Shown piece after piece: positions 25,165-39,600 of a DNA stretch of 64,000 nucleotides. The notes under the pieces were generated by a model that saw nothing but the letters and a program-made list of their open reading frames with translations, made no database searches and was not told the DNA's origin. A program made the position numbers and the translations under genes. Each line of letters opens with the position of its first letter. Positions within the stretch are counted from its first letter, which is position 1. The stretch comes from Bacteroidota bacterium (GTDB taxonomy: Bacteria > Bacteroidota > Bacteroidia > Chitinophagales > LD1). The DNA lies in contig JAPLES010000009.1 in assembly GCA_026391075.1 (NCBI GenBank), forward strand, positions 96,828-160,827. Direction: 5' to 3'.

Positions 25165-25479
25165 ACAGTGCTAATCTGCATCGTTGCAGTTCTAATTAGA
25201 TTCAGCGCAGTTCTAATCTACTTCACACCTTTTCTAATTAGAATCACACTAATTCTCATTAGCATCGTTGCAGTTCTAATCTGCATCGCACCAGTTCGAA
25301 TTAGATTCGTTCCGATTTTTGTTAGCATCACTGCTGTTCTAATTAGATTCAGTGCAGTTCTAATCTACTTCGCTCCTTTTCTAATTAGATTCACTGCTGT
25401 TCTTGTTAGAACCATTGCCGTTTTAATTAGATTTAGTGCAGTTCTAATCATCTCCGTTGCAGTTCTTGTTATCTCGGCT
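25165..25479. repeat. 21-bp minisatellite, 15 contiguous units
   Basis: Fifteen units of exactly 21 bases with no indels. The core is TTCTAATTAGATTC (palindrome TCTAATTAGA) or the variant TTCTAATCTGCATC/TTCTAATCTACTTC, flanked by GCAG. Units 2-4 (25186-25248) recur as units 9-11 (25333-25395), offset 147 bases, so the array grew in part by a seven-unit block duplication. One plus-strand frame stays open through the array (GTG 25168 to 25551) and would give a hydrophobic 7-residue repeat (VLIRFSA type); as the period is a multiple of three this needs no selection. About 85 bases before and 240 after carry no gene. Confidence 0.93.
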
Positions 25480-25591
25480 TTTTATTGCAATGCAAAAATT
25501 TTTTCTGCGTTGTTTTTAAATTTTGAATTTTTCTTTCGTCTGCGCAAATAGGTTGCGCCCTGCTACCCCATATTTGTATTTGTAAATACAG

Positions 25592-25613
25592 CCTGCCTAT
25601 ATATAAAGGCAGG
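25592..25613. repeat. Small palindrome CCTGCCT / AGGCAGG
   Basis: Seven-base arms (25592-25598 and 25607-25613) around an AT loop, 106 bases before the FN3 gene. The arm sequence is shared with the intragenic palindrome at 60993-61015. Confidence 0.6.
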
Positions 25614-25718
25614 TGAAGCAGTAAACAAAGTGCACTTGTTTGCTGAATAACCCACCTTGTTGCGCAACGGCAGGCGGTATTTGCACTATTTATTTTTTTA
25701 TTTTTAAATCTATCCATT

Positions 25719-26339
25719 ATGAGTCGCGTAAAAATTGACTTCGACAAAAAACCGGTTCCTCAACAGGTAGCCGAAAGCCGTGATAAGCAAACTAAAATCA
25801 CGGGTAACCCTAATTTCGTAACTCCGATACCTTCGCTAGCTGATATAAAAGCAGCTACTGATGCTTTGGAAAATGCTTACACCGATGCGCTGAATGGCGA
25901 CAGAGCCAAAAAAGCTACCATGCGCATTACGCGTAAAGCATTAAAAGAACTGATTGTGAAACTGGCAGACTATGTACAGATTATCAGCGATGGTGATGAA
26001 ACAAAAATTCTGAGCAGCGGATTTGGTGTGCGCAAACAACGCACACCTGCAACTGTGCCTGATGTGCCTATAGATGTAAAGGTAAGCTCTACAGAATTTG
26101 ATGGTGCATTAGACATTAGCTTTAAACCTGTAAAAGGTGCTAAGAGTTATGTGTTTGAAATCTGTGCCGACCCATTGGCCGAGAAAAATTTTACTCCGGT
26201 TGAAATCAGCACCAGGTCCAGCATTCGGGTAAAGGATTTAGCACCGGGAACCAAATACTGGTTTCGTGTACTGGCTGTAAACGCAGCAGGTAAAAGCGGT
26301 TGGAGTGTTCCGCAGAGCGGTAGAACTACTCAGTTCTAG
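25719..26339 (+). CDS. Fibronectin type III domain protein
   Basis: A 206-residue protein without a signal peptide. Residues about 40-105 form a helical region (LADIKAATDALENAYTDALNGDRAKKATMRITRKALKELIVKLADYVQ). Residues about 118-206 are a fibronectin type III domain (PDVPIDVKVSSTEFDGALDISFKP, YVFEICADP, VKDLAPGTKYWFRVLAVNAAGKSGWS). This two-part arrangement is common in Bacteroidota proteins of unknown function. It sits alone after the 970-base repeat-rich stretch, with its own terminator. The lack of an export signal is odd for an FN3 protein. Role unknown. Confidence 0.82.
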   Translation: MSRVKIDFDKKPVPQQVAESRDKQTKITGNPNFVTPIPSLADIKAATDALENAYTDALNGDRAKKATMRITRKALKELIVKLADYVQIISDGDETKILSSGFGVRKQRTPATVPDVPIDVKVSSTEFDGALDISFKPVKGAKSYVFEICADPLAEKNFTPVEISTRSSIRVKDLAPGTKYWFRVLAVNAAGKSGWSVPQSGRTTQF

Positions 26340-26365: not shown

Positions 26366-26396
26366 AAAGCTCTCCCGGAAGGGGGAGCTTTTTTTG
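26366..26396 (+). terminator. Terminator of the FN3 gene
   Basis: AAGCTCTCCC / GGGGGAGCTT hairpin (one G-T pair) with a run of seven T, 26 bases after the FN3 stop codon. Confidence 0.85.
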
Positions 26397-36600: not shown

Positions 36601-39600
36601 TGTAAGTTCCACCGGTAACATTCGAAAGGTCTTCGCTTGTTGCACCATTGCTCCACAAATAAGTGTATGGAGAAACACCACCACTCACCGTTAAATCTGC
36701 ACTTCCGTTCGAAGCACCCGGACAAGTAACATCTGTTTTTGTCAATGAAGAAGTAATGGCTGTTGGCTCAGAAATAGATGTAGTGAAAGTTGCGGTGCAG
36801 GCATTAGCATCAGTAACTGTTACCGAGTAAGTTCCAATGGTAAGCCCGTTCAAATCTTCATTCGTTGCTCCGTTAGTCCATGCATAAATATACAGCGGAG
36901 TACCGCCAAATACATTGATATCAATTGAACCGTTGTTGCCACCATTGCAACTAACATCGGCATGCCCTGCAAGCACCACTACAAGCGGAGCGGGTTGTGA
37001 GATTGTAACACCTGTAGAAGTTGAACATCCTTTCGAATCGGTAACAGCAACGTTGTAAGTGCCGGCACCAATTCCTGTTATGTCTTCTGTAGTTAATCCA
37101 TTGCTCCATACAAAACTGTTTCCTCCATTGCCACCTGTAACAGTAATGTAGATAGCTCCTGTTGTATCTCCATTGCATAAAATGTTGTGCGTAGAATCAA
37201 CAAATGCCTGCAATAAATTTGGTTGAATGATGGTTACGTTTGCAAAATCGGTACATCCTTTTGAATCGCGAAGAGTAACTAAATAATTACCTGAAGCCAA
37301 ACCTGTGAAGGTTGGTGATGAAACAAATTGCACCCCATTTATAGAATAAGAATACGGAGGCAAACCACCAACGAGTTGAACGGTGATAGTTCCATCTACT
37401 CCACCGAAACACGAAACATCTGTTTGCGAAACAATACTTGCAGTTACCGCATAAGCCGTATCAATGGCCACATGCGTAGTATCTGTACAGCCATTGAAAT
37501 CAACTACCAACACAGTATAATTTCCAGCTAATAATCCGCTGAAAACATTTCCTAATTGTGTAGGTCCGCCATTTAATGAATAGGAATATGGAGTTGTTCC
37601 TCCTGTTGTATTCACAGTTATACTACCGTCAAAAACATTATCGCAACTTGCATTTTGCACTACGTTAGTGTGGTCCAGCACTTGCGGTTCGGTTACTTGA
37701 ACTCCATTTGAAGCAAGCGAAACACAATTCAACGCATCGCTTACCAATGGAAAATAAGTGCCGGCAGTTAATCCACTAAATGAGTTTAAGGTTTGATAAT
37801 TGGCTCCGTTATCAATTGAATAATTAAACGAAGGCGTTCCGCTTGATGCAGTTAAAGTAATTGAACCCGTGTTTCCACCATTGCACAAAACATTGCTAAT
37901 TGAAATATTGCTGATAACCGGAAGCGGTGCAACTGTAATTGTTGCAGCACCTAAAAATCCGCTTGAGCGAATACATCCGTTAGCATCTGTAATTTGTTGA
38001 ATTGAATAAGTTGTAGTTGAAGCTGCTAATTCACGAATGGTATCGCCATCGTTTACTCCAGTTTTGGTAAACACGTTTGTTCCATCGGTATAAACCACAT
38101 CGAATGGTGCTGTGCCTACGGCAAAATTGAACGTGAGCACCGTGTCTACTCCGGCACAAACTTGTGTGCTTCCGCTTAGGCTACCGTTAGGTAAAGGATT
38201 GACCGTTAAAGTAAATGAAGTGCAAATCGTAGTGTTGCATAAACCTTCGGCACGTACAAAATAAGTAGTGGTAATTGCGGGACTAACATTCGATAGTACT
38301 CCGCCTGTACCTACAGGTGTTCCTCCGCATGAACTGGTATACCATTCCCAGGTAGCAGAGGTTCCTAAACTTCCGCCTACTACAGCTAGATTGGTGGAAC
38401 TTCCAATACAAATAGCAAGCGGTGCCGAAATACTTGCAGCAGGTATTGAAGTGTCTTGAACAGTTACCGTTGTAAATGCACACGAAGTAGTGTTGCAAGT
38501 TCCTTCTGCCCTAACAAAATAATCGGTGGTTGAAGAAGGACTAACCGTTATAGAATTTCCTGTGCCCTCTGCCGTTCCTCCGCAACTTGCACTATACCAA
38601 TTCCAAGCTCCGCCAGTTCCTAATGAACCACCAACTACTGTAAGCGTAGTTGAAATTCCATTGCAAATTGTGGTAACACCAGAAACAGAAGTTGGAGCAA
38701 CTGAAGGTTGATTAACGGTAACTGTTAATTGCACACAAACAGTATTGTTGCATGTTCCTTCGGCTCTTACAAAATAAGTAGTTGTTGTAGTTGGCGAAAC
38801 AGAAACGGATGTTCCGTTTCCAACCGATGTTCCTCCGCAACTTCCGCTATACCATTGCCAGTTTGCACCGGTACCTAGTAAACCACCCACCACCGAAAGT
38901 GTAGTGTTATCGCTATTGCAAATAACACTTGTTCCACTAATTGAAGATGCCGCAGTTGATAATTGATTTACAGTAACAGAAGTTGAAACACAATTTGAAT
39001 TATTACAAGTTCCTTCGGCTCTTACATAATAAGTTGTTGTAGTACCTGGTGAAACTGTAAGCGATGAACCCGTTCCTGCAACTGTTCCTCCGCAACTTCC
39101 AGTGTACCAATTCCAGCTTGCACCGGTTCCTAATGAGCCACCCACTACTGAAAGTGTGGTTAATGTTCCGTTGCAAATAGTTGTAGTTCCTGAAATAGAG
39201 AATGGATCTGTGGAAGGTTGATTTACCGTGATGGTTGTTGAAACGCAACCAGTAGTGTTGCAAGTTCCTTCTGCTCGCACATAATAAGTTGTTGTAGAAA
39301 TTGGACTAACGGTTATTGAATTTCCCGAACCTACAGGAGTTCCTCCACAACTACTGCTGTACCATTGCCAGTTTGCCCCTGTTCCTAATGAACCACCAAC
39401 AATAGTAAGATTTGAAGAACTGCCGTTGCAAATTACTGCTGGTGATGAAGTAATACTTGCAGCTGCTGTTGAAAGTTGATTGACTGTTACTTGTAAATTT
39501 ACGCAAGCTGTAGTGTTGCAAGTGCCCACTGCACGCACATAATAAGTAGTTGTAGTTGTTGGGCTTACTGTTATGGAAGCACCGGCACCGGCACTCGTTC

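Follow-up and report, generated by a model that had tools for sequence, protein, structure and literature searches.

Locus-specific tandem arrays with a 21-bp period upstream of helical-plus-FN3 genes in Bacteroidia

Operator clusters are made of phased, repeated and degenerate dyad sites that lie ahead of promoters and that one regulator binds along a single DNA face; the sites are usually few, with one motif per regulator, and we know of no cluster type in which spacing is conserved across unrelated motifs. Iterons are tandem sites spaced by about two helical turns; each array has a motif of its own, often related to dyad operators. They form the arrays of Rep-binding direct repeats of theta-replicating plasmids (PMC4980987). 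BrickBuilt, a MITE minisatellite of Porphyromonas gingivalis, is an intergenic tandem array with a 23-nt unit and constant leader and tail ends; its one sequence is present at 19 loci of the genome, near promoters (PMC4596501). Repeats of the TAACTGA heptamer, found between genes in Beggiatoaceae, Cyanobacteria and some Bacteroidetes, often precede start codons (PMC4679880).

The array considered here lies in a stretch of 64,000 nt (‘the window’), within a 171-kb contig of a Bacteroidota bacterium of the order Chitinophagales. It occupies positions 25165–25479, has no assigned strand and consists of 15 units of a degenerate dyad-symmetric motif with consensus TTCTAATTAGATTCACTGCAG. As the original prediction had it, every unit is exactly 21 bp long, with no indels; identity at lag 21 in the array region is 0.626, compared with a maximum of 0.39 over lags 10–59 in 1000 dinucleotide shuffles of the same region, and the flanks fall out of the 21-bp register. 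A block duplication, also proposed from the letters of the sequence, was borne out: units 2–4 and units 9–11, offset by 147 bp, match at 57 of 63 positions. The palindromic core proposed to recur along the array held in part. The exact palindrome TCTAATTAGA is present in only four of the 15 units (2, 4, 9 and 11) and four further units have no more than two mismatches to it, but the remaining ones carry other core variants (CTAATCTGC, CTAATCTAC, CTTGTTAG), built from a few recurring sub-blocks. Like iterons, which are tandem repeats of ∼17–22 bp in helix phase, the array has a period of 21 bp and no indels; unlike iterons, arrays of this kind are chromosomal, occur many times per order, precede FN3 genes without a link to a Rep gene, and can reach 18 degenerate units or more. 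Neither a Rep gene nor a replication origin was seen among the neighbours of the window array.

The array ends 240 bp before the start of a plus-strand gene (25719–26339) encoding a 206-aa protein in which a helical bundle forms the N-terminal part and an FN3 domain the C-terminal part. Within this interval, the sequence kept in relatives comprises the inverted repeat CGCAA-N5-TTGCG, followed by an ATTTG-rich block and by a leader. In an alignment of five loci of the family we delimited, on the plus strand, a putative core promoter block at 25541–25583 (inverted repeat GCGCAAATAGGTTGCGC, then CATATTTGTATTTGTAAATAC) and a conserved leader from the putative promoter to the start codon at 25584–25718; the promoter-like block is kept in the relatives while the array is not. 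Judged by its sequence, this conserved region downstream of the array probably is the promoter and leader of the FN3 gene, which is followed by a terminator-like hairpin with a T run (26366–26391, plus strand). The inverted repeat with an ATTTG-like block (25541–25557 in the window) recurs before FN3-family genes and also precedes another gene cluster in the same genome (L002:1527–1541); it is possibly a common promoter type.

The helical-plus-FN3 proteins form a family that is multicopy and occurs throughout the class. Structure comparison of the protein encoded in the window gave matches to the FN3 domain only, and no named relative of the N-terminal helical domain. A viral or phage origin of the gene was considered and rejected, as the search gave no viral or phage relatives; defence families were not found either. 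The array neighbourhood codes for a Por_Secre_tail protein, an FN3 protein, PorP/SprF and an FGE-sulfatase-like protein. Elsewhere in the window (38486–39397), a 255-bp tandem repeat of 3.6 copies lies within a minus-strand open frame of 2728 aa, which looks like an ordinary repeat-domain protein.

We compared the locus with other members of the family in the order, taking 77 distinct genes with at least 600 bp of upstream sequence. An upstream array was present at 43 of the 77 genes and a downstream array at one of 46 (Fisher p 8e-11); since the family genes share ancestry, these counts are only partly independent. When the period was chosen freely between 14 and 35, 39 of the 43 upstream arrays had a period of 21 bp and the other four 22 bp. 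A look for the same array before other FN3 genes had been proposed as a check; its period and place do recur, but the sequence, unexpectedly, is different each time. Arrays at different loci of the order are mutually unrelated; similarity of their consensus sequences is at the null level (0.376 versus 0.374), and no second copy of the window array was found in its own genome. One repeat sequence at many loci, the hallmark of BrickBuilt, is therefore not what we saw: although both are intergenic tandem arrays of Bacteroidota genomes, with units of similar length, several loci per genome and a place near promoters, only the period is common to the arrays described here. The TAACTGA repeats, which are also intergenic and direct and often lie upstream of start codons, differ in having one 7-base sequence, with neither 21-bp phasing nor a tie to the FN3 family.

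The background in the genome carrying the window was assessed in 1.22 Mb out of 3.61 Mb. Only three non-coding arrays with a period of 14–35 were found; all three have period 21 and all lie just upstream of FN3-family genes. Repeats inside genes had periods of 15 or 18, and 0.59 Mb of shuffled control contained no non-coding arrays. For a separate test we drew family loci from class-wide genomes beyond the order, requiring 450 bp or more of upstream sequence. An array was present at 21 of the 25 loci, with periods of 21 or 42 in 18 cases, 22 or 44 in two and 20 in one; the GC content of this class-wide set ranged from 0.19 to 0.70. A seven-row query run against genome contigs matched loci of the same genus only. 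In or near some arrays (L033:609–780, L160, L162, L167) we observed a 7- or 14-bp sub-period of the AAATTGA or CAACTAA type; there, the 21-bp unit may be three heptamers.

The orthologous locus in genome G015 (contig 38) has an array of the same motif in the same place, with 72% identity. Units of the two arrays are about as similar between arrays (0.62) as within each of them (0.65 and 0.64), and they are not colinear. Variable columns are shared (rho 0.48, p 0.03), to which shared unit subtypes may contribute. A paralogue on contig 24 of G015 (L057) codes for an 80% identical protein and keeps the promoter–leader region; its array, ∼305 bp long and in the same place, is also built of 21-bp units, of unrelated sequence. 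As a separate observation, two further loci (L058 in G017 and L059 in G000) have a nearly identical FN3 gene, upstream region and HEAT-like gene, which is unexpected between two species and may reflect either recent transfer or shared assembly contamination.

Dyad symmetry was evaluated against a null in which the columns of the unit are permuted, with period and divergence kept. The window array is dyad-symmetric (z 4.1, p 0.005), as are, at p < 0.05, 44 of 57 FN3-linked arrays and 16 of 21 arrays of the class-wide set; the information content of units peaks near the dyad centre. At the level of the motif, the arrays thus have dyad sites of a kind suited to a dimeric protein, and a period of 21 would align these sites along the same side of the helix, ahead of the likely promoter, as in an operator cluster. 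Static curvature from A/T phasing at 10–11 bp within the unit was rejected, self-similarity at lags 10 and 11 being negative; units do resemble themselves at a three-base step (lags 3 and 6, z 2–3).

Dyad units could also be read as hairpins, with the transcribed array acting as a structured RNA, either as a string of hairpins in a long leader or as a separate RNA. Raw folding scores are indeed strong (z ∼ −5 on both strands), and arrays fold better than arrays with residue-shuffled columns. However, the arms do not covary within units: 7525 paired positions were counted versus 7501 expected (z 0.76, with the same z in the class-wide set), and covariation was not supported when half-units were kept intact in a half-unit swap (t −2.3). 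Both strands fold alike and the order of units has no effect on folding; as half-unit linkage and the unit-order shuffle remove the weight of the folding scores, we discounted them. Hairpin selection, for RNA or cruciform, is therefore not supported, and a dyad whose arms do not covary is what one expects of a binding motif rather than of a hairpin. Furthermore, the conserved putative promoter follows the window array rather than preceding it, and no Rfam family matched it near the gathering score; the RNA reading is improbable. Still less credible is a heptad-repeat protein encoded by the array itself. The open frame with a hydrophobic heptad repeat noted earlier does exist (25168–25551, plus strand, 127 aa) and such frames run through many arrays, including that of the orthologue, in slight excess over expectation (79 versus 63); a heptad repeat, though, follows from the 21-bp period. 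Against coding, arrays with periods of 20 and 22 exist, 16 of the 57 arrays have no open frame, and there was neither synonymous excess (p 0.66) nor a difference in variability between codon positions (p 0.61). We judged the frame in the window a non-gene; negative codon tests and absent arm covariation together make both coding and hairpins unlikely.

The main rival is a neutral one, left as an alternative in the original prediction: satellites born of a process whose built-in quantum is ∼21 bp (e.g. copying or recombination of protein-wound DNA), which land or survive preferentially in certain intergenic regions and have no local function. To our knowledge, no process making 21-bp repeats has been described. 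Lack of sequence relation between loci would be natural for such satellites. As they arise and decay, they would also pass through the range of unit divergence observed, from near-identical units (L168) to ∼53% similarity (L067). The sister genome G014 adds to this side: 392 kb of it contain about 12 non-coding arrays, compared with three in 1.22 Mb of the genome carrying the window, all with period 21 (contigs 5, 9 and 20; L192–L210 in G014), mostly at unrelated, non-FN3 genes and in two cases between convergent genes. On the other hand, the arrays are strongly biased to upstream positions, not only at FN3 genes but also in a second multicopy protein family (‘family 2’; a helical N-domain, with a CarboxypepD_reg-like domain in longer members), where they are directly upstream in ∼15 of 24 loci and downstream in none (e.g. 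L198:11367–12347, L284:940–2148 and L271:937–2178, all on the minus strand; L271, on contig 88, is the one such locus in the genome of the window). The association with FN3 genes is kept across the class, and the FN3-linked units have dyad symmetry. Fixed period and placement upstream of FN3 genes thus disfavour a neutral minisatellite, although neutral birth with a 21-bp quantum still could produce such arrays; we regard this reading as unlikely, if the least unlikely of the alternatives. Mobility has a smaller claim, a little below that of structured RNA: a MITE-like minisatellite or a site of cassette exchange could carry the FN3 gene or insert beside it. In G015 the orthologous array, leader and gene adjoin different neighbour genes, several family copies are near contig ends, and at L069 intervening genes separate the FN3 gene from the nearest array, 4.1 kb upstream. 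Yet the array is single-copy in its genome, the sequence differs at every locus, and an unsystematic look revealed no shared ends.

Between a phased array and a neutral minisatellite, a period fixed in dozens of loci of unrelated sequence and the dyad symmetry of FN3-linked units favour the former, with protein binding as the putative role. We therefore return to the array as a cis-element that lies upstream of the FN3 gene and comprises ∼15 phased degenerate dyad sites that would be bound by protein dimers, a reading which, from the sequence comparisons, we hold to be right with about even probability. Sequences differing by gene, with spacing fixed at two helical turns, point to a control element defined by spacing. 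With one site per two turns, all sites would face the same side of the DNA, just upstream of the promoter-like block and leader; dimers, perhaps of a small helix-turn-helix regulator or a nucleoid-type protein, might bind side by side on that face, probably cooperatively, and so switch or insulate the promoter and affect expression of the FN3 gene. Conservation concerns the architecture (period 21, sometimes 22, upstream position and dyad) and not the sequence; each locus has a private motif, its units probably turning over by in-register recombination. The lack of a common motif, which means that one sequence-specific protein could not act at every array, is a point against the operator reading; the private motif may be set by a regulator specific to each array, or the array may be read via shape.

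Proximity to HTH genes speaks for the operator reading. In G014, arrays occur within 1.5 kb of nine of the 20 HTH_3 loci, where 1.9 would be expected; the array-linked genes code for small Cro/C1-type proteins of 104–151 aa (L296, L298, L307, L309, L311, L318, L320, L323 and L324). Also outside the FN3 family, a small gene with product MRRKL... has four orthologues with four mutually unrelated arrays, of period 21 or 22. Several facts count against the operator reading: 34 of the 77 family genes are array-free within 900 bp; some arrays of G014 lie between convergent genes; only two of ten family-2 arrays are dyadic; and none of the ten HTH loci of the genome carrying the window has a period-21 array nearby.

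With somewhat less confidence than for the window locus, and tentatively, we propose a class-wide bacterial cis-element set by period and not by sequence: phased at two helical turns, carrying private motifs, and kept upstream of the helical-plus-FN3 family. Its reader would be a protein that co-evolves with the arrays or recognises shape, and the element would be the bacterial counterpart of fast-evolving satellites whose repeat length is fixed. The mechanism may be that of ordinary operator clusters with many private regulators. The claim to novelty has two grounds: the statistical pattern itself, and the finding that no paper in the open literature searched describes arrays whose period is conserved while their sequence is not. 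If neutral, the arrays imply a repeat-making process with a 21-bp quantum, which would likewise be new. If functional, they are a regulatory element hidden from alignment and motif search, since conservation is limited to spacing, position and symmetry; they would provide a test case for reading DNA phase without a fixed motif and a way into the function of a protein family that is multicopy, class-wide and still uncharacterised.
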